Part shown: positions 8,932-20,414 of the stretch, piece after piece
How the letters are laid out: every line of letters begins with the position of its first letter
How positions within the stretch are numbered: the stretch's first letter is position 1
Assembly: GCA_024638285.1 (NCBI GenBank)
Contig: JAHEKP010000009.1
Span: forward strand, 1 to 47,307
Direction of reading: 5' to 3'
DNA length: 47,307 nt
Source: Cryomorphaceae bacterium
GTDB taxonomy: Bacteria > Bacteroidota > Bacteroidia > Flavobacteriales > Schleiferiaceae
Notes under the pieces: model-generated
What the model was told of the DNA's origin: nothing
The model's input: only the letters and a program-made list of their open reading frames with translations
Databases searched by the model: none
Program-made: the position numbers and the translations under genes

Positions 8932-10242
8932 TTATAGCGCGTTTACTGGACGATCTGGAACCAATTCATGAATCTCCAACAACGGGTTAAACCTTGAACA
9001 AAGCCCCAACTCACCAAGAATCTCTGCTTCAATTTCTGGTGTTAAGAAGTGCTCCATGGTTTCTGCCTCGTCATGCACAAGGTTAATGCTCATTTGCATT
9101 CGCCGCTGCAGGTAAATCTCCCAAATCTTATGACGTCGATCTATCTCTGCACCGTAAGAACGTCCTTCTGTAGACAGCGTAAAACCCGTATGAACTTTCT
9201 TAATGAGGCCTTTCCGTCGCAATCTGCGAACTGTTCTATTCCAGAGGCCTTGCTCGAAAACGTGACGCTGGCTTATGCTTCTTCTATTAAAGAGCTTTCC
9301 TAAGCCACGAACCTCGTTTTGTACAGCTGTTTTAAGAAGGTTTTCTTCATTTATTCTTCTTTTTAACAACAGTTTAGACCACCGTTGATAAATCACTCCA
9401 CGTTTTGGAGCGAACAACATAGAAACAAAAGCAATCAACGAAATGATTACAATGGTCCACGGTCCTGTTGGCATCGCTGTTTGAGAATAACTCACAAAAG
9501 CGCCAAGCCAACCTGCTAAGGCACCAAAAAAACCACTCAATAGCAGTAGGCGAACAAAGCTGTTCGTCCAAAATCTGGCTGCAGTGGGGGGAATAATTAG
9601 CAGTGCGCTCATCATCACAATGCCCACCGCTTTAATGCCTACGGAAATGCTTAGAATAGTAATGAAACTGATCACGCCATCTATAAACTTTACGTTAATT
9701 CCTATGGCATCTGCATATTCTAGATTAAACACAACGGATTTTATACTGTGATAAAAACTCAAGACTAATGCCAACACTAGACCTGAAACCAATGCAAAAG
9801 CGTTGCTGTCTTCGGGAGTCATAGCGGCGGCATTTCCAAAAATGTAATGATCTAAACCACTCTGTTCTCCCCCATAATTGGATTGTATCACCGTCAATAA
9901 CACAATACCAAAACCGAAAAAGCTTGAAAGCACAATGGCTAGCGCGCTATCGCCTTTAATTTTACTTTGTTGCGTGATATAGTCCACTAATAAAATACTT
10001 AACCAACCGCTTATAGCAGCCCCCGTGATTAACACGTAAGGATTTTTTACTCCGCTTAAAAGAAAGGCAATAAGCACGCCTGGAAGCATGCTGTGTGCAA
10101 CAGTTTCTCCTACCAACGTTTTCTTTCTCAAAAAATTGAAACTACCCACGGCTCCTGAGACACCTCCTAATAACAGTGTGGCCAATGCTACGTAGCGCAC
10201 ATTAGGATCTTGAAGCGTCAAGTATTTAAGAAAAGCATCCAA
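8932..10242 (-). CDS. metal ABC permease fused to a DtxR/MntR-like repressor domain
   Basis: Fusion protein of 436 residues. About residues 1-285 are an ABC-3 permease (GETVAHSMLPGV, several membrane helices). About 295-436 are a soluble DtxR-type regulator: winged helix (GLWNRTVRRLRRKGLI) followed by the metal-binding/dimerisation helices. Lining up with DtxR gives His371, Glu375, His390, Glu394, Glu397 and His398 at the exact spacing of DtxR His79, Glu83, His98, Cys102, Glu105 and His106. Glu instead of Cys102 is the manganese-sensor (MntR) state. The layout matches chlamydial YtgCR, where the repressor half is released by proteolysis; whether that occurs here is unknown. Confidence 0.9.
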   Translation of the reverse strand: MDAFLKYLTLQDPNVRYVALATLLLGGVSGAVGSFNFLRKKTLVGETVAHSMLPGVLIAFLLSGVKNPYVLITGAAISGWLSILLVDYITQQSKIKGDSALAIVLSSFFGFGIVLLTVIQSNYGGEQSGLDHYIFGNAAAMTPEDSNAFALVSGLVLALVLSFYHSIKSVVFNLEYADAIGINVKFIDGVISFITILSISVGIKAVGIVMMSALLIIPPTAARFWTNSFVRLLLLSGFFGALAGWLGAFVSYSQTAMPTGPWTIVIISLIAFVSMLFAPKRGVIYQRWSKLLLKRRINEENLLKTAVQNEVRGLGKLFNRRSISQRHVFEQGLWNRTVRRLRRKGLIKKVHTGFTLSTEGRSYGAEIDRRHKIWEIYLQRRMQMSINLVHDEAETMEHFLTPEIEAEILGELGLCSRFNPLLEIHELVPDRPVNAL

Positions 10243-10243
10243 A

Positions 10244-11164
10244 CTAGCGTACTAAGTAGGTTTTTAAGAGTGTTGCATTAAACAACAGCATTTCAAGGTA
10301 CGTGTCTTGGTTTGATTCAGGGCCTAAAGAATCACTTAATAGTTCTGGTCCTAGGACTACGTTAAATCCTTTGTCTTCACAACCGCGCTGAACGCTTTCC
10401 ATGGCCTGCGGACTCACAATGTTCTCTAAAAAGATTGCAGGGACTTTATTCTCGCATATAAAATCAACCAATTCTGTGATTTCCCGTAAACCAAATTCGC
10501 TGACTGTAGAGGCGCCTTGAAGGGTTTGAACCCGCATACCAAAGGTGCGCGCAAAATAACTTAATGCATCGTGAGTGGTAATAATTAATCGCTGTTCAGG
10601 ATCAATGCTTTCTACTATTTTTTGTACTGATTCTGAGGTAGTTATAATCTGTTGTTGGTAGTTTGCAGTTGCGCTTTCAACCTGTGAAGCATATACTGGA
10701 TAAGCTGCAATAAGTTGTTCTGCTATATCCCCAACAATGAATTGGACTAACTCTGTATCAAACCAATAGTGTGGATCCTTGCTCGCTGGAAAATTAGGAT
10801 CGCTTATAATGATAGAATCAGGAACATGTGCTGCCGCATCAATAATAAGCTTTCCCTCTATTTTCTCTAATATATCTATGATTTTGCCCTCGAGATGTAC
10901 ACCGTGATAAACAATAACATCTGCGGCTCTAATAGCGTCTAAATCACGTTTGCTCGGCTTATAAGTGTGTGGGTCAATTCCTTTATCTAACAATGCCGTG
11001 ACTTCAAACGCATCGCCAGATATGTTCGTTAACCAATCTGCCATAATACTTGTAGTACACAACACCTTGGGTTGCTCAGTAGTGTTAGATACCGGAGTAT
11101 TAGGGGGTGTTGAACAGGCTCCAAAACCAAATGCAAATACTAGAAGAACAAAGGTAAAACGCAT
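10244..11164 (-). CDS. metal ABC transporter substrate-binding lipoprotein (TroA/ZnuA family)
   Basis: Cluster A-I metal-binding protein (306 aa), periplasmic and lipid-anchored: signal sequence with lipobox FGAC, Cys17. The metal ligands can be placed as His66 (DPHTY), His132 (DPHYW), His198 (THDAL) and Asp278 (SDSLG), the His3-Asp set of TroA. There is no His-rich loop as found in ZnuA, which favours Mn or broad specificity over Zn. The frame is open to 11191, but the ATG at 11164 gives a proper signal peptide and an exact -7 element lies at 11189-11196. It is first in the operon and ends 1 nt before the fused permease. Confidence 0.9.
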   Translation of the reverse strand: MRFTFVLLVFAFGFGACSTPPNTPVSNTTEQPKVLCTTSIMADWLTNISGDAFEVTALLDKGIDPHTYKPSKRDLDAIRAADVIVYHGVHLEGKIIDILEKIEGKLIIDAAAHVPDSIIISDPNFPASKDPHYWFDTELVQFIVGDIAEQLIAAYPVYASQVESATANYQQQIITTSESVQKIVESIDPEQRLIITTHDALSYFARTFGMRVQTLQGASTVSEFGLREITELVDFICENKVPAIFLENIVSPQAMESVQRGCEDKGFNVVLGPELLSDSLGPESNQDTYLEMLLFNATLLKTYLVR

Positions 11165-11188
11165 CTTATTTAAATTAATTCTAAATAA

Positions 11189-11196
11189 CAAAGGTA
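11189..11196 (-). promoter_or_regulatory. -7 promoter element for the metal importer operon
   Basis: The minus strand reads TACCTTTG, an exact match to TAnnTTTG, 24 bp upstream of the binding-protein ATG at 11164. It overlaps the alternative longer reading frame and so supports the shorter start. No clear palindromic MntR/DtxR operator could be seen around it. Confidence 0.5.
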
Positions 11197-11297
11197 CGGC
11201 ACAGTAAGTCCACTTAAAAAATCAGTAAAGCAATTTTTAGAATACAACAAAAGTCGTTCGTTATGTTTAATTTTATACACTCACCTAAAACAAGAAC

Positions 11298-12839
11298 ATG
11301 GGAAATTTCACAGCGACCACAATCTTAAAAAACCTAGGCGTAGAAGCTAAAAATGCCGGTACCGCAATAGGTAAACAATGGCATGATTCTAACGAATGGA
11401 TTGCCTCTTACTCACCTATCGACTCTGCACATTTAGGCGATGTTAGTAGTACTACAGAGGAACAATACAACGCAGTAGTTTCAACTGCGCAAACCGCTTT
11501 TAAAGATTGGCGCAATGTTCCAGCACCTCAAAGAGGTGAGTACATAAGACAATTCGGAAATGAATTAAGAAATAAAAAAGAAATGCTTGGCGCGCTGGTC
11601 TCACTAGAGATGGGTAAAAGTTACCAGGAAGGTTTAGGTGAAGTTCAAGAAATGATAGACATCTGTGATTTTGCTGTCGGTTTATCACGTCAATTGTATG
11701 GATTAACTATTAAAAGTGAGCGACTTGATCATCACATGATGGAGCAATGGCATCCGCTTGGAGTTGTTGGTGTAATCTCTGCTTTTAACTTCCCTGTTGC
11801 TGTATGGTCTTGGAACTTTGCTTTAGCTCTAGTATGTGGAAATACTGTGGTTTGGAAAGCTTCTGAAAAGTCACCACTTTGTGCTGTTGCTTGCCAACAC
11901 ATCTGGAATAAAGTAGCTACTGAAAATAATTTACCTGATGGTATTTCTACTATCGTGAGCGGTGATTATAAAGTGGGTGAATGGATTACAAATGATACCC
12001 GTATTCCTCTAGTCTCTGCCACAGGGTCAACGCGAATGGGAAGAATTGTTGGTGCTGCTGTTGCCCAGCGATTTGGAAAAAGTATTCTTGAATTAGGGGG
12101 TAATAACGCAATCATCATCACTCCTAGTTCAGATTTAAAAATGACTGTGACAGGAGCTGTTTTTGGGGCTGTTGGTACTTGTGGACAGCGTTGTACATCT
12201 ACCCGCCGTTTGATTATTCATGAATCCGTCTACGATAAAGTCCGTGATGCATTGGTAGGTGCTTATGACCAATTAAAAATTGGCAGCCCTCTTGATGAAT
12301 CAAATCACGTGGGACCCTTAACTGATGCAGATGCTGTTGCAGCGTTCTTAAATACTATTCAAAACGCTCAAAAAGAGGGTGGGAAAATACTTTGTGGTGG
12401 TACGGTTTTAAACGGTGGAATTTATACTAATGGATTATACGTCAAGCCTTGTATTATTGAAGCTGAAAACCAATACAACGCTGTACAGACTGAAACTTTT
12501 GCACCTATACTTTACCTTATTAAGTATTCTGGAGATGTACACAACGCATTAGAACTTCAAAACGGTGTTCAACAAGGTTTATCTTCAGCTATCATGACTA
12601 GCGATATGCGTGAAGCCCATATTTTCTTAAGTGAGAGTGGATCAGATTGTGGTATTGCTAATGTGAATATAGGCACTTCAGGAGCTGAAATTGGTGGTGC
12701 TTTTGGCGGTGAAAAAGAAACTGGTGGAGGTCGTGAAAGTGGATCAGATGCTTGGAAAGCATATATGAGAAGGCAAACTAATACTATTAATTACGGAAGT
12801 GATTTACCTTTAGCCCAAGGCATTGAATTTAATCTTTAA
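11298..12839 (+). CDS. ALDH7-type aldehyde dehydrogenase (alpha-aminoadipic semialdehyde dehydrogenase-like)
   Basis: NAD(P)-dependent aldehyde dehydrogenase of 513 residues from the antiquitin/AmaB (ALDH7) group, which oxidises alpha-aminoadipic semialdehyde in lysine breakdown and detoxifies related aldehydes. Key residues are Asn164 (FNFP), Glu265 (LELGGNN) and Cys299 (GQRCTSTRR). The N-terminal LGV and the HPLGVVGVISAFNFPVAVW stretch are typical of ALDH7 rather than of other ALDH families. The gene is AT-rich compared with those left of 11 kb. A near -7 element TATGTTTA is at 11262-11269. The next gene starts 3 bp downstream. Confidence 0.88.
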   Translation: MGNFTATTILKNLGVEAKNAGTAIGKQWHDSNEWIASYSPIDSAHLGDVSSTTEEQYNAVVSTAQTAFKDWRNVPAPQRGEYIRQFGNELRNKKEMLGALVSLEMGKSYQEGLGEVQEMIDICDFAVGLSRQLYGLTIKSERLDHHMMEQWHPLGVVGVISAFNFPVAVWSWNFALALVCGNTVVWKASEKSPLCAVACQHIWNKVATENNLPDGISTIVSGDYKVGEWITNDTRIPLVSATGSTRMGRIVGAAVAQRFGKSILELGGNNAIIITPSSDLKMTVTGAVFGAVGTCGQRCTSTRRLIIHESVYDKVRDALVGAYDQLKIGSPLDESNHVGPLTDADAVAAFLNTIQNAQKEGGKILCGGTVLNGGIYTNGLYVKPCIIEAENQYNAVQTETFAPILYLIKYSGDVHNALELQNGVQQGLSSAIMTSDMREAHIFLSESGSDCGIANVNIGTSGAEIGGAFGGEKETGGGRESGSDAWKAYMRRQTNTINYGSDLPLAQGIEFNL

Positions 12840-12842
12840 ACC

Positions 12843-13613
12843 GTGATTACACCTGTAAAACTTGGAGGACCCGTTGAATCGCGTCCTCCTTTTTTATTTT
12901 TTGGATTAGGAAGTTGTTTTGTTCAAAATCTAGCTACCCCTTTGGATAGAAGTATGATATCGTATTCTTTTAATCCTTTAGGAACTTCTTTTAATCCAGT
13001 TAGTATAGCCCAACAATTAGAATGGTTAATACAACCAGAGGTTACTTTAAATCCAAGCTTTTTTTATAAAGGAATCTACCACCAACTTCAAGCAGCAAAT
13101 AAATTTCAACATACAGATGAAGCCCTACTTGATGCGCTTATAACTACCACTCGAAACAACGCCTTAGACTTTTTAAAACGCAGTGAACATCCCGTACTTA
13201 TTATTTCTTTTGGTACCGCGCACTACTGGGAATTGAATGGAACAATTGTAAATAACTGCCATAAACTACCTCAAGAACTATTCAAGCGTAAATTATTAGA
13301 TCTCGATGAAATCACTAAAGCTTGGACTGCTGTTTTAACACACCTACCTGAGCGTTGGCAAGTTATTTTTACCGTGAGCCCTGTGAAATACACAAAGGTT
13401 GGTTTAGAAGAAAATTTTATAAGTAAATCTATATTACGACTGGCTATAAAATCGTTGGTAGAACAGTATTCTAACTGCTTATATTTTCCTAGTTATGAGA
13501 TAATTACAGATGAATTAAGGGATTATAGTTATTTTAAAGATAACGGTACTCACCCTAATGAATCTGCAGTAGAAATAGTCTTTGAACGGTTTAAATCATT
13601 TCTTAATTTCTAA
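12843..13613 (+). CDS. GSCFA family protein (SGNH-hydrolase-like)
   Basis: Member (256 aa) of the GSCFA family, largely confined to Bacteroidota and some Proteobacteria and related to SGNH/GDSL hydrolases. The name-giving motif appears as GLGSCFVQN, Ser24-Cys25-Phe26, and GTHPN near the C-terminus could hold the catalytic His. The substrate is not known. The start is GTG at 12843, three bases after the ALDH7 stop, and there is no signal peptide. Its 3' end overlaps the convergent NUDIX gene by 18 bp. G+C is about 34% by hand count. On the plus strand C slightly exceeds G in this plus-strand gene, unlike rpiB 1 kb to the right. Confidence 0.85.
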   Translation: MITPVKLGGPVESRPPFLFFGLGSCFVQNLATPLDRSMISYSFNPLGTSFNPVSIAQQLEWLIQPEVTLNPSFFYKGIYHQLQAANKFQHTDEALLDALITTTRNNALDFLKRSEHPVLIISFGTAHYWELNGTIVNNCHKLPQELFKRKLLDLDEITKAWTAVLTHLPERWQVIFTVSPVKYTKVGLEENFISKSILRLAIKSLVEQYSNCLYFPSYEIITDELRDYSYFKDNGTHPNESAVEIVFERFKSFLNF

Positions 13614-14168
13614 AAATTCAGGCCGTAGTGCGGCTAATTTTAATACAGCTGCAACACTAATACTGTCTTTAATAGATCCTTCAAGTACTTGAGTATAAAG
13701 TGTACTAAAATGCAAGCGTTCTAAGCGAAGATTTTCTGTATCATCATGAGATGTACCTAAAAACGTTAAAGATTCAGCTAAGAAGACCACAGCACGCTCA
13801 TTCGTAACGCTGTTACTTAAATCCATCTGTAGAAATTCAGACCAATGTTCCGCTGAATATCCAACCTCTTCTTGCAACTCACGTTTTGCACTATCCAAAG
13901 GGTTTATTCCAATAGGACCACCTCCCTCAGGAATTTCCCAACTGTATGTATTTATTGGGAACCGGAATTGACCTACCCGCCAAGTATATCCATCTTGATC
14001 AATTGGAATAATTCCAATCGCTAAATTTTTAAAATGTACCTCACCGTAAATACCTTCTGTGTTACCTGGGGTAATAACATCATAGTGCCGCACAGTGATC
14101 CAAGCATTATCGTAAGCCTGATTAGAGTTCTTAACTATCCAGTCTCCTCTATTTATATATGTATTCAT
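13596..14168 (-). CDS. NUDIX hydrolase
   Basis: Nucleoside-diphosphate-linked-moiety hydrolase of 190 residues. The NUDIX box core RELQEEVGY is at residues 96-104, carrying the Glu residues that bind catalytic Mg2+. The first Glu of the classic box (about position 88) is not conserved, while GGG and the later motif suggest an ADP-ribose/ADP-sugar pyrophosphatase-like member. The substrate is unknown. It converges on and overlaps GSCFA by 18 bp, and its 5' end borders the gene-free candidate origin region. Confidence 0.88.
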   Translation of the reverse strand: MNTYINRGDWIVKNSNQAYDNAWITVRHYDVITPGNTEGIYGEVHFKNLAIGIIPIDQDGYTWRVGQFRFPINTYSWEIPEGGGPIGINPLDSAKRELQEEVGYSAEHWSEFLQMDLSNSVTNERAVVFLAESLTFLGTSHDDTENLRLERLHFSTLYTQVLEGSIKDSISVAAVLKLAALRPEFLEIKK

Positions 14169-14570
14169 TTTAAAAGATATATAGTAATATATATAGCGTG
14201 TTGATAACGGTGATAACTCATGGGTTTAAATTATATTTTCCATGTTTAATGAGGTTTATTAACACTTTTATAAATAATTAAAATATTGATTATTAATTAA
14301 TTATAAAATTTTAGACCGTTTTGTTAATTAGATAACTAACTATATTAAGTTGATAAATAAATCTCATCCTACAGGGTATATCTATACTTTTCGAGTTCAT
14401 AAGTAGCAGAGAAGAATTATTAACTAACTGTGCTTATGTCAATATATTTTTGAATTGGGTAAAAAATTTAAAGAAGCAAGTAAAAGTTTTAAGAGAATAT
14501 CATCCACTTATCCAACTTTATACACAGAGTAGTTCACAACATTTACGACCTTTGTAGAAATTAACGACGG
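14169..14570. other. candidate chromosomal replication origin (oriC)
   Basis: Gene-free 402-bp stretch, the longest in the window. Hand count gives 67 G+C in 300 bases (22%) for 14221-14520, with 17% over 14221-14340, fitting an unwinding element. DnaA-box-like 9-mers are TGTTGATAA at 14199-14207 (one mismatch to TGTGGATAA), TTATCCAAC at 14508-14516 (7/9) and TTATACACA at 14518-14526 (fits TTATNCACA). GATAAC recurs at 14203, 14212 and 14331. Strand-matched G/C counts shift toward G on the plus strand from left to right across it, and two parS sites lie within 6 kb. No dnaA gene is in the window, so this rests on composition and motifs. Confidence 0.55.
14518..14526 (+). promoter_or_regulatory. 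DnaA-box-like 9-mer
   Basis: TTATACACA matches the relaxed DnaA box TTATNCACA. It lies 1 bp after a weaker box TTATCCAAC (14508-14516) in the same orientation. A further near-match in the opposite orientation, TGTTGATAA, is at 14199-14207, at the other end of the AT-rich gap. Confidence 0.45.
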
Positions 14571-15002
14571 ATGAAAATAGCAATTGGATGTGACCACGCA
14601 GGTGTTGAGTTAAAACAAGTTTTAATTCAATTAATAAGAGATTTAAAACACGAGGCATTTGATAAAGGCCCTTTCTCAAGTGAAAGTGTAGATTATCCAG
14701 ACTATGGTCATGCTGTAGCTTTAGCTGTTGATCATGGTGATGTTGATCTAGGTGTTGTTATTTGTGGCTCAGGTAATGGTATAAATATGACTGTGAATAA
14801 ACATCAAGGTATTCGAGGTGCGTTGTGTTGGACTCCAGAAATTGCAGCGCTTGCTCGTCAACATAATAATGCTAATGTAGTAGCAATACCTGCACGTTTT
14901 ATCTCAACGGATGAGGCAAAATTGATTGTTTCGGAGTTTTTAACACAACAATTTGAAGGCGGTCGTCACCAAAGAAGAGTGGGTAAAATAGCGTGTAGTT
15001 AA
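14571..15002 (+). CDS. rpiB: ribose-5-phosphate isomerase B (RpiB/LacAB family)
   Basis: Isomerase of 143 residues interconverting ribose-5-phosphate and ribulose-5-phosphate in the pentose phosphate pathway. The N-terminus IAIGCDHAGVELK and the central CGSGNGINMTVNK with RGALCW are diagnostic of RpiB, the latter holding the active-site loop. The C-terminal FEGGRHQRRVGKI is also typical. It is the first gene to the right of the candidate origin. The plus strand has G 101 and C 61 over 14581-15000 by hand count. It ends 1 bp before the convergent lipoprotein gene. Confidence 0.93.
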   Translation: MKIAIGCDHAGVELKQVLIQLIRDLKHEAFDKGPFSSESVDYPDYGHAVALAVDHGDVDLGVVICGSGNGINMTVNKHQGIRGALCWTPEIAALARQHNNANVVAIPARFISTDEAKLIVSEFLTQQFEGGRHQRRVGKIACS

Positions 15003-15003
15003 T

Positions 15004-15675
15004 CTATTTAACTACTCTATAAAGTAATTGACCTTCATAAGAAGTGAGTTGAACTCGCGCCTGTTGTTCCCAGATCCCTTGTAAAAATCTAAGTGAGTAA
15101 CCTCCATAAATACCACTAGGAGGTGGAGTACTTTCTAACAGGTGTATTAACTCTATGGGTTTAATTTCAGACGGATAATTAGGAAGCACATTTTTATCTT
15201 TATACATACACTCTACCAGGTATTCTTTAAAACTACCTTTATAAAAAGGGAATAAAAATCCTCCTTTAACATCTGTATTTACAAACCAATTAACTGTAGC
15301 ATGCACCTCTAAACCGGATGCTGCAACATACTGGATGGGATATTTTTCTAAGGCTTCTATCAGTTCTAATCCATTAGATTCGCGGATTAAAGGGTGATCA
15401 GTGTTTAATATATATAAAGGGTCAGTATTTAAACGATGAGCAATAATGACTTGATAATTATTTTTTAGGAACCAATTGGTAATAGAATCGTTCTGCGTGC
15501 AATACTTATCTTGAAAAAATAAAACTGCGGGATTTTTACTTCGTCCTGTTTGGACTAATTTATAATTAGGAACGTTTGTTTCTATCTCCTTTACAGATGA
15601 ACAATTAGTAATTAATAATGACAGAGTTACAAGAATTACAGCGTTTTTTACGCGTAGTTTATCTACGTAAGTCAT
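15004..15675 (-). CDS. uncharacterised lipoprotein
   Basis: Protein of 223 residues with a type II signal sequence: basic N-terminus, hydrophobic AVILVTLSLLI and lipobox ITNC with Cys25, so probably anchored in a membrane facing the periplasm. The middle has patches reminiscent of alpha/beta-hydrolase-like Bacteroidota proteins (VLFFQDKYCTQNDS, YVAASGLEVHATVNWFV), but the usual GxSxG nucleophile reads ASGLE, so activity is doubtful. I do not recognise the family. Its 5' end overlaps the start of the divergent DUF4175 gene by 58 bp. Both starts look right because both N-termini are proper hydrophobic signals. Confidence 0.7.
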   Translation of the reverse strand: MTYVDKLRVKNAVILVTLSLLITNCSSVKEIETNVPNYKLVQTGRSKNPAVLFFQDKYCTQNDSITNWFLKNNYQVIIAHRLNTDPLYILNTDHPLIRESNGLELIEALEKYPIQYVAASGLEVHATVNWFVNTDVKGGFLFPFYKGSFKEYLVECMYKDKNVLPNYPSEIKPIELIHLLESTPPPSGIYGGYSLRFLQGIWEQQARVQLTSYEGQLLYRVVK

Positions 15676-18155
15676 TGTATTATAGTGTTTTATTATTATT
15701 GTTAAGTGTTATTTCAGTGATAGGTCTAGCTGTATATAACCATTATTTCATTCCTGAACTTGTTGTGTTTAGAAAGATAGTAGGAATACTACTGTCATTA
15801 GTTTTAGTTGCGTTGTTATTTTGGCCGGTTCGTTATTTTTTGCAAGCTATCTGGAGTAAACAGTATTCATTAAGCAGTATAGCAAAAAGGTTAAAATATT
15901 ATGACAAAGGAAGGCTTAATGAAATAACAGGGTTGTCGCAAAAAGAGTTAGATAAATGGGCACAAACAGTTGTGTTACAAAAAGTATATCTCGAAATACC
16001 TCTGTTTAAAAAAGAGCTGAATAAAAAAATTCCTTCATCTATTATAGGTTGGACGGCCGTGCTACTTGTTTTTATAATTGTATTTAGCCCGATGTCTATA
16101 ATAAACGAAGGAAAGACTGAAATTTTTCAAGGGACGTATACGCGTGAAACAATCACTCTTGACCCTTTGGATACTACTCATAGCGTATTCAATACGATTA
16201 TAGAGCTGAATCATCCTGTATTAACTCCAGTGTATAAAGGAAATATCACAGAAGCGCTACTCATAAAAACTAATGAATCTGTTAATTGGGAGCGGAATGG
16301 ACGATTTTATAAAAAGCAAACAATCATCTGTGACAGTATACCTAAATTATCATCATGGAGTGCGAGGATAGAACCTCCTAGATATTTGAATTTATCTCCC
16401 TATACAGTCCAAGATACGATCAAAGCATTTTTAGGCTCAAAAATTACGATAACATTTCAAGGTGTGCTGAAAGATAAAATATGGGTGAATGTTTCACGTG
16501 AAACAAGCGGGGTACCTTTTATTTGGAATGGAGGGAACATAGCTTTAGAATCATCGTTTTGGGCACAATCAATCCCAACACTACAACTCAATGATGAACC
16601 GCCTTTAATAACAGTGGTAGGAAACACTAGTGATTCGCTTATTATAAAGGTAACAGATGATTACGGTTTAATACGACTTAATATTGATTCTCAAGAAGCA
16701 AGAATAGATGGATTAAGCACTGTTGTTAAAATATCTTGGGACAACAAGAGGTCTGTTTTATTCAAAGCCCTCGATAATAACAATGGATTAAGACAACGTG
16801 AGTTAAGAAGACCAACGCTTACTACCAATCAAATATTAAAAAATGCTTCTGATCAAGCATTAAAAAGTACCATCGTTGATAATAAGGAGGAATCGTTGAT
16901 TAAATACAGGAATAACCAGCGATCAATTGAAAAAGACAACGAGAAGGTTGATAGGAAGGAGCTTAAAGAGAGGTCGCTGAAAAGAGATATTAACGAAGAG
17001 GTAGAACCTTTAGATAAATTACTTGAACGTTTGGATGAATTATGGCGTCTAGAGGAAGCTATTGAACTTTTATCTAAGGTAGATTCAATACGAAATGAAG
17101 GTTTGGATAGTGCTTTATTTGAAACAGCAGAAGCAATAGAAGAGTTTGGTAAAGAAGCGCTGCAGCCATCGATAGAAAGCATTAAGAATATAGATAAAGA
17201 AGGTAGGACCAGAGAGGAGCAGGCGAAAGAGGCCAGTGATAAGTTAAAAGAGTTATTAGCTACTAGTGTAGCGCAGGTCCAGGAAGATAATGTGGCACGG
17301 ATTAAGCGTTTATTAAAGAGTGGTTGGGCGGTCAGTATAGTACAAGAGAATTTACAAGAACTAGCAATAGCAGTGAATAAAGTACAATCACAACAGCTCG
17401 TATTGGTTAATGAAAAGTCTATTAAAGACAGCCTAGATTTATTACTAGTTAATGAACCAAAACTAAACCAAATGCTCAATGAAAAACGCGCAAATCTTCA
17501 TGCAGCAATGCGGACTATTGAATCTAAAATGACGGCTGGGAAAAATATAGATGCCGACGTGGGCTACGCAACCACTGCGTTAAATGATATTAATCAAGTG
17601 CTTTATTTTCTTTTAGAGAGTGAAAAACAAAGTCTAAACCAAGCAAAGAAGGATTGTAAAAACGGTAAACCTGGTGCATCAGGAAAGCCCGCGGCTTTAG
17701 GTGAGGGCAAGGAGGGTAAAAAAGGACAACCAAAATCTTCTAAGAAGCCTGGAGGTAGAGCGAAAGGAAACACAGGTGATCCAAAGGAAGGCAAAGAGGG
17801 TAATAAACCGGGTTCATCAGGTATACCGGGAGAAAAGGAGTTATTAAAGAGAATTGATGCTGCTAAAGAAGAACTGGATCAAAATGGCCAGAGTCAAGGT
17901 AAATCAAGAGAGGAGTTAGATCGATTGAAGGAAGAATTATTATTTGATAGCACTAAGTCGGGCGAGGACCTAAACGAGCTGGAAGACCGATTATGGCGTG
18001 TAGAAGAAAGCGTGTTTAATAAAAAGGAACAGGGCGAACAAAGAGCGAGCGAGTCTGGAAATAATTCAAGATCAAAAGACAGCGAAAGCATTGATTTTAA
18101 GGTGTTAAAATCTAAGGAGACCGACTTACCTTTACCCGTGCTTAAGAAGCGTTAA
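15618..18155 (+). CDS. DUF4175-like membrane coiled-coil protein
   Basis: Protein of 845 residues like the Bacteroidota DUF4175 proteins that usually precede ybeY-mnmG. Two membrane helices near the N-terminus (about 20-45 and 50-75) and a third near 135-155 are followed by a beta-rich part, a long charged helical region and a Gly/Lys/Pro/Ser-rich stretch (about residues 685-740). It is shorter than the roughly 1000-residue relatives I know of. Its function is not established. A perfect parS sequence is embedded at 16490-16505, encoding Asn-Val-Ser-Arg-Glu-Thr. It ends 3 bp before ybeY and starts inside the divergent lipoprotein gene. Confidence 0.75.
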   Translation: MTELQELQRFLRVVYLRKSLYYSVLLLLLSVISVIGLAVYNHYFIPELVVFRKIVGILLSLVLVALLFWPVRYFLQAIWSKQYSLSSIAKRLKYYDKGRLNEITGLSQKELDKWAQTVVLQKVYLEIPLFKKELNKKIPSSIIGWTAVLLVFIIVFSPMSIINEGKTEIFQGTYTRETITLDPLDTTHSVFNTIIELNHPVLTPVYKGNITEALLIKTNESVNWERNGRFYKKQTIICDSIPKLSSWSARIEPPRYLNLSPYTVQDTIKAFLGSKITITFQGVLKDKIWVNVSRETSGVPFIWNGGNIALESSFWAQSIPTLQLNDEPPLITVVGNTSDSLIIKVTDDYGLIRLNIDSQEARIDGLSTVVKISWDNKRSVLFKALDNNNGLRQRELRRPTLTTNQILKNASDQALKSTIVDNKEESLIKYRNNQRSIEKDNEKVDRKELKERSLKRDINEEVEPLDKLLERLDELWRLEEAIELLSKVDSIRNEGLDSALFETAEAIEEFGKEALQPSIESIKNIDKEGRTREEQAKEASDKLKELLATSVAQVQEDNVARIKRLLKSGWAVSIVQENLQELAIAVNKVQSQQLVLVNEKSIKDSLDLLLVNEPKLNQMLNEKRANLHAAMRTIESKMTAGKNIDADVGYATTALNDINQVLYFLLESEKQSLNQAKKDCKNGKPGASGKPAALGEGKEGKKGQPKSSKKPGGRAKGNTGDPKEGKEGNKPGSSGIPGEKELLKRIDAAKEELDQNGQSQGKSREELDRLKEELLFDSTKSGEDLNELEDRLWRVEESVFNKKEQGEQRASESGNNSRSKDSESIDFKVLKSKETDLPLPVLKKR
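16490..16505. promoter_or_regulatory. parS site (perfect ParB/Spo0J consensus)
   Basis: TGTTTCACGTGAAACA is identical at all 16 positions to the chromosomal parS consensus bound by ParB/Spo0J. It is inside a coding sequence, as parS sites often are. A 14-bp exact core is expected about 0.0002 times in random sequence of this length, and a second copy occurs 3.9 kb away. It lies about 2 kb right of the candidate origin. Confidence 0.92.
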
Positions 18156-20398: not shown

Positions 20399-20414
20399 AG
20401 TTTCACGTGAAACA
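20399..20414. promoter_or_regulatory. second parS site, between mnmG and the methyltransferase gene
   Basis: AGTTTCACGTGAAACA has the complete 14-bp palindromic core and matches the 16-bp parS consensus at 15 positions. It fills nearly the whole 19-bp space between the mnmG stop and the next ATG, ending 2 bp before that start codon. Confidence 0.88.

Follow-up and report, generated by a model that had tools for sequence, protein, structure and literature searches.

Background

An origin of replication (oriC) far from dnaA is stated to be common in Bacteroidetes in one report (PMC4755523), and the oriC of the first chromosome of Prevotella intermedia (PMC4755523; DoriC) is described there as lying far from dnaA, with a skew switch and DnaA boxes. 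The DnaA basal unwinding system (BUS), known from Bacillus subtilis and numerous other species (PMC6669920, PMC8287927), has DnaA boxes, a short spacer and triplets of the 3'-GAT-5' type. By published criteria it comprises a DnaA box with at most two mismatches, optionally a second box with at most four, together with three or more NAN triplets no further than 16 bp away, usually 3'-GAT-5' (PMC8287927). ParB/parS segregation centres have the 16-bp palindrome TGTTTCACGTGAAACA near the origin.

The locus described here, an intergenic gap upstream of rpiB in a marine bacterium whose nearest named relatives are Schleiferiaceae (Flavobacteriales), resembles all three systems. It shares the skew switch, DnaA boxes and distance from dnaA with the P. 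intermedia origin, but it belongs to another lineage, and its link to rpiB and its unwinding-type element are family-wide. With the BUS it shares boxes, spacer, triplet type and polarity, its 5'-TAG-3' triplets reading towards a reverse-strand box. Unlike in the BUS, the better of the two boxes is that next to the triplets, the distance to the triplets is often 2 bp, and one triplet deviates in this species; the element here is a candidate recognized by sequence criteria. The parS palindrome is likewise shared, but the sites here fall within or next to genes on the downstream side of the predicted origin.

Results and discussion

Gene context of the predicted origin

The window, which is the whole of contig C76 (47,307 bp), belongs to a 1.71-Mb assembly of 85 contigs. 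The gap upstream of rpiB (Table 1) is very probably the chromosomal origin, acting by the mechanism proposed below. The original prediction had placed a bidirectional origin in this 402-bp AT-rich gap, and strong support for such a predicted origin comes from the skew switch in closed relatives, the strand-corrected skew break in the genus, the conservation of the gap, the unique unwinding-type element (which the original prediction had missed) and the proximity of parS. The gene mnmG/gidA is 4 kb from the gap, and dnaA, as the original prediction had noted, is not nearby; it is on another contig of the same assembly, and its separation from the origin is common in the phylum (PMC4755523). A known RNA locus in the gap was rejected, as Rfam and tRNA searches returned no RNA gene. 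Elsewhere in the window, an ABC-3 metal permease is fused to the C-terminal domain of an iron-dependent repressor (8932-10242).

Table 1. Features of the predicted origin region, in window coordinates.
Feature	Position	Strand	Basis or remark
NUDIX gene, divergently oriented on the left side of the gap in the genus; the rest of the family has other genes in this place	13596..14168	-	Pfam and family loci
Intergenic gap separating the divergent NUDIX and rpiB genes, predicted as oriC	14169..14570		25% G+C; skew break; in closed relatives the skew minimum falls at the orthologous site
Candidate unwinding element, BUS-like, with triplets, a spacer and a tandem pair of DnaA boxes	14177..14222	+	Profile match; single core in each of the 14 genus genomes with a match
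DnaA-trio-like triplets TAG TAA TAT ATA TAG, 5' to 3' towards the boxes	14182..14196	+	Sequence; unbroken TAG/TAA runs in other genus members
DnaA box TTATCAACA, proximal to the triplets, 1 mismatch to TTATCCACA	14199..14207	-	Genus-conserved (alignment); plus-strand TGTTGATAA
Second, weaker tandem box TTATCACCG, 3 mismatches	14208..14216	-	Most genus members have GTGATAAC or GTGGTAAC
17% G+C stretch (16.7%)	14221..14340		Base count
DnaA-box-like TTATTAACA, 1 mismatch	14256..14264	+	TTATCCACA or TTATTCACA at a nearby position in several relatives
Degenerate DnaA box TTATCCAAC, two mismatches to consensus	14508..14516	+	Relatives have TTATCCACT or TTATTCACA
DnaA box TTATACACA, exact TTATNCACA	14518..14526	+	Sequence
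rpiB, constant origin neighbour	14571..15002	+	Pfam LacAB_rpiB 5.9e-55; flanks the gap family-wide
parS-like TGTTTCACGTGAAACA, 16-bp palindrome, inside an 845-aa ORF	16490..16505		Motif search of assembly
Another parS-like site, with 1 mismatch, immediately past mnmG/gidA	20399..20414		Motif search of assembly

GC skew in closed relatives

Because the source genome is fragmented, genome-wide skew was taken from three closed, single-contig genomes of Schleiferiaceae (G014, G017 and G026), sampled in 20-kb bins amounting to approximately 9-13% of bases. In G014 every sampled bin between 0 and 1.82 Mb is negative and every one between 2.0 and 3.82 Mb is positive, with rpiB at 1.839 Mb. Negative skew in G026 is confined to 0.85-2.58 Mb, the rest being positive, and rpiB is at 2.580 Mb. 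G017 switches at 2.64 Mb, the site of rpiB; across the circle from there its values are small and mixed. The local cumulative minima lie upstream of the rpiB start codon by 556 bp in G014, 621 bp in G026 and 555 bp in G017. The dnaA genes, at 1.3 kb (C1:1275) in G014, 1.014 Mb (C1:1014298) in G026 and 1.059 Mb (C1:1058879) in G017, are 1.6-1.8 Mb from rpiB. The minus-to-plus switch of the closed relatives is thus at rpiB, not at dnaA. A skew minimum elsewhere, for example at dnaA, was one result by which the original prediction had proposed to be refuted; in all three genomes the switch was found at the orthologous gap. On the circle, dnaA lies 78-92% of a half-circle from the rpiB origin in these genomes, near the plus-to-minus switch, from which low dnaA gene dosage would follow in growing cells.

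GC skew in the window and the genus

Raw skew in the window is mostly negative up to approximately 10 kb and mostly positive from approximately 14 kb, with its cumulative minimum at 11529, 3 kb to the left of the gap; a minimum approximately 3 kb upstream of rpiB is also found in the genus. Two plus-strand genes drag the minimum to 11529, and raw cumulative skew was for this reason rejected for placing the origin. To correct for the influence of gene orientation on raw skew, plus-strand G and C at third codon positions were compared in a logistic model that included a gene-strand term and a break. Among the 46 genes of the window, the best break fell between NUDIX and rpiB, the next being 1.0 log unit worse. 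This model bears out the skew shift that the original prediction had drawn from four hand-picked gene comparisons; the underlying hand counts were reproduced except for the G count of the NUDIX gene, which is 86 rather than 85. Eight genus contigs with conserved gene order (365 gene instances) gave the same best break, as did the seven contigs that remained when the window was left out. In the pooled genus model the next break scored 5.5 log units below the best, although these contigs are related, so that log units overstate their independence, and the break is resolved to about one gene.

An origin nearby but outside the gap, for example at the raw minimum around 11.5 kb or near mnmG and parS at 16-20 kb, has very little probability. 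It has in its favour the raw minimum, in both the window and the genus, but the pooled strand-corrected model disfavours any break to the left of NUDIX (at least 13.2 log units below the best) and a break at 15678 (8.7 below), the minima of the closed relatives lie approximately 0.6 kb from rpiB, and the unwinding-type element is found only in the gap.

Base composition around the gap also varies: G+C content is approximately 31-40% within about 4 kb on either side, compared with 42-49% further out (window positions 10500-18000 and the eight genus contigs). Third-codon G+C in the eight genus contigs falls to 0.18 near the gap, a local AT trough in coding DNA that is centred on the predicted origin.

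Gap composition, conservation and DnaA boxes

Recomputation reproduced the base composition given in the original prediction, 25% G+C for the gap and 22.3% for 14221-14520 as well as the lower value in Table 1, and the three box-like words that it had listed (TGTTGATAA, TTATCCAAC and TTATACACA) begin at 14199, 14508 and 14518 as described. Exact TTATNCACA occurs once in the gap of the window against 0.05 expected, and words within one mismatch occur three times against 1.0 expected; over the whole window there is no excess of exact boxes (3 seen, 2.05 expected). By themselves the boxes in the window are weak evidence, and a count of exact boxes in the window alone was judged insufficient. When the gaps of 29 family genomes were pooled, 33 exact copies of TTATNCACA were found against approximately one in shuffles, a roughly 30-fold excess. 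Clustering of DnaA boxes in this AT-rich sequence devoid of genes is evident in the pooled family data and modest in the window alone.

Conservation of the gap in relatives, which the original prediction had proposed as a check, extends across the family. The gap upstream of rpiB measures 326-621 bp in 28 of the 29 family loci; in the remaining locus the absence of a called ORF on the left extends the measured gap to 935 bp. The left neighbour varies among genera (NUDIX here, a gene of 340-390 aa elsewhere) and rpiB stays. A further conserved sequence, GACCTTTG at 14547-14554, approximately 20 bp before the rpiB start, is kept in many members of the genus and in certain genera besides, and is possibly a promoter or leader element.

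It is highly improbable that the gap serves solely to hold the promoters of the divergent genes NUDIX and rpiB, with its AT richness and box-like words as by-products. The divergent flanking genes, the conserved GACCTTTG just before rpiB and the modest box excess of the window would fit such a region; however, it would leave unexplained the skew switch in closed genomes, the strand-corrected break, the clustering of parS and the persistence of the unwinding-type element despite a changed left gene. An origin gap can hold promoters too.

A candidate BUS-like unwinding element

At the left end of the predicted origin, the candidate unwinding element has the layout 5'-(TAG/TAA)n - 2 bp - TGTTGATAA - CCG - TGATAAC-3'. 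Several relatives within the genus have five unbroken TAG/TAA triplets beside the box with a 2-bp spacer. In the window the ATA triplet violates the NAN rule, leaving three consecutive NAN triplets (TAG TAA TAT) of the right polarity and an 8-bp spacer to the box. With one mismatch in TTATCAACA and three in TTATCACCG, the tandem boxes are also within the limits for a BUS.

A profile was built from 13 genomes of other genera, with anchors picked by eye within approximately 500 bp of rpiB, so that its score is a test of uniqueness in the window and not a blind discovery: the match at 14177 scored 27.7 bits, the next best within the 47 kb of the window 11.0, and the maximum in 30 block shuffles was 18.4 bits. 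Of the 25 genus genomes, 14 contain a 21-bp core, each in exactly one copy, and this copy invariably shares its contig with rpiB and lies upstream of that gene. No match to the core was obtained in the other 11 genus genomes, among which there are many incomplete ones and two, G063 and G070, with diverged versions. The element persists where the left gene differs.

parS-like sites

The original prediction had pointed to the clustering of parS sites at origins, and the only parS-like matches in the whole assembly are the two beside the gap, 1.9 and 5.8 kb downstream of it, one of them the full palindrome. In at least nine genomes of the genus the first site keeps a distance of approximately 1.9 kb from the rpiB start. 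Genus g17 also has parS-like copies, which in several of its genomes are located approximately 0.45 and 2.3 kb past rpiB. The ORF at 15618-18155, which may encode up to 845 aa and has no Pfam match, contains the conserved parS-like site within its coding sequence, so that protein and DNA signal overlap. A different reading would have replication begin next to dnaA and would take the present locus for a ParB/parS segregation centre or the edge of an old inversion. The sites at 16490 and 20399 would suit it, but there is almost no chance that this is the case, as dnaA in the three closed relatives lies far towards the opposite side of the circle and not at the minus-to-plus switch, and an inversion boundary would not carry a conserved element of the DnaA-unwinding type.

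The arrangement beyond Schleiferiaceae

The Schleiferiaceae profile was applied outside the family without refitting. It scored 28.3 bits at -619 of rpiB in G241, of the same order, where skew passes from -0.09 to +0.11, and 23.2 bits at -468 in G286, of the same class, where skew passes from -0.20 to +0.14. A closed Flavobacterium genome, in which the skew flip is weak, gave 22.2 bits at -577. The next-best places in these three stretches scored approximately 5-6 bits, and several draft Flavobacterium and Bacteroidales loci concur. The pattern is absent at rpiB in Algoriphagus, Hymenobacter, Cytophagales and many other Bacteroidia, as well as in the closed genomes G363 and G126, and is weak in G307. 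A phylum-wide claim of an rpiB origin was dropped on account of these negative and weak cases; the arrangement is wide, not universal.

Proposed mechanism and significance

In the proposed mechanism for the predicted rpiB-linked origin, DnaA made from a distant locus would bind the tandem boxes (14199-14216) and the right-hand boxes (14508-14526), and would then spread onto one strand of the TAG/TAA triplets (14182-14196). The AT-rich DNA would be opened and helicases loaded in both directions; two forks leaving the gap would produce the minus-to-plus skew switch, and ParB on the nearby parS sites may segregate the copied origins.

That Bacteroidetes origins are commonly distant from dnaA is, as a general claim, already published (PMC4755523). 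The place of the origin in this genus and the conserved rpiB-linked element appear to be new, as far as the open literature shows; searches of open papers, which are weak evidence on this point, found no link of rpiB with the origin.

The balance tips slightly towards an rpiB-anchored oriC, with a recognizable unwinding element and no nearby dnaA, having been inherited across Schleiferiaceae, Flavobacterium-type bacteria and part of the remaining Bacteroidia, such that a single profile would be enough to locate the origin, fragmented genomes included, and towards dnaA having moved close to the terminus in Schleiferiaceae. Annotation that takes dnaA as the first gene of the chromosome, as appears to be the case for G014, can easily overlook or misplace an origin lying elsewhere. 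The element is a defined DNA target for tests of DnaA-dependent unwinding in Bacteroidota, and its conserved link to rpiB would allow origins to be placed in contigs of uncultured Bacteroidota, leading to better estimates of growth rate from read depth.
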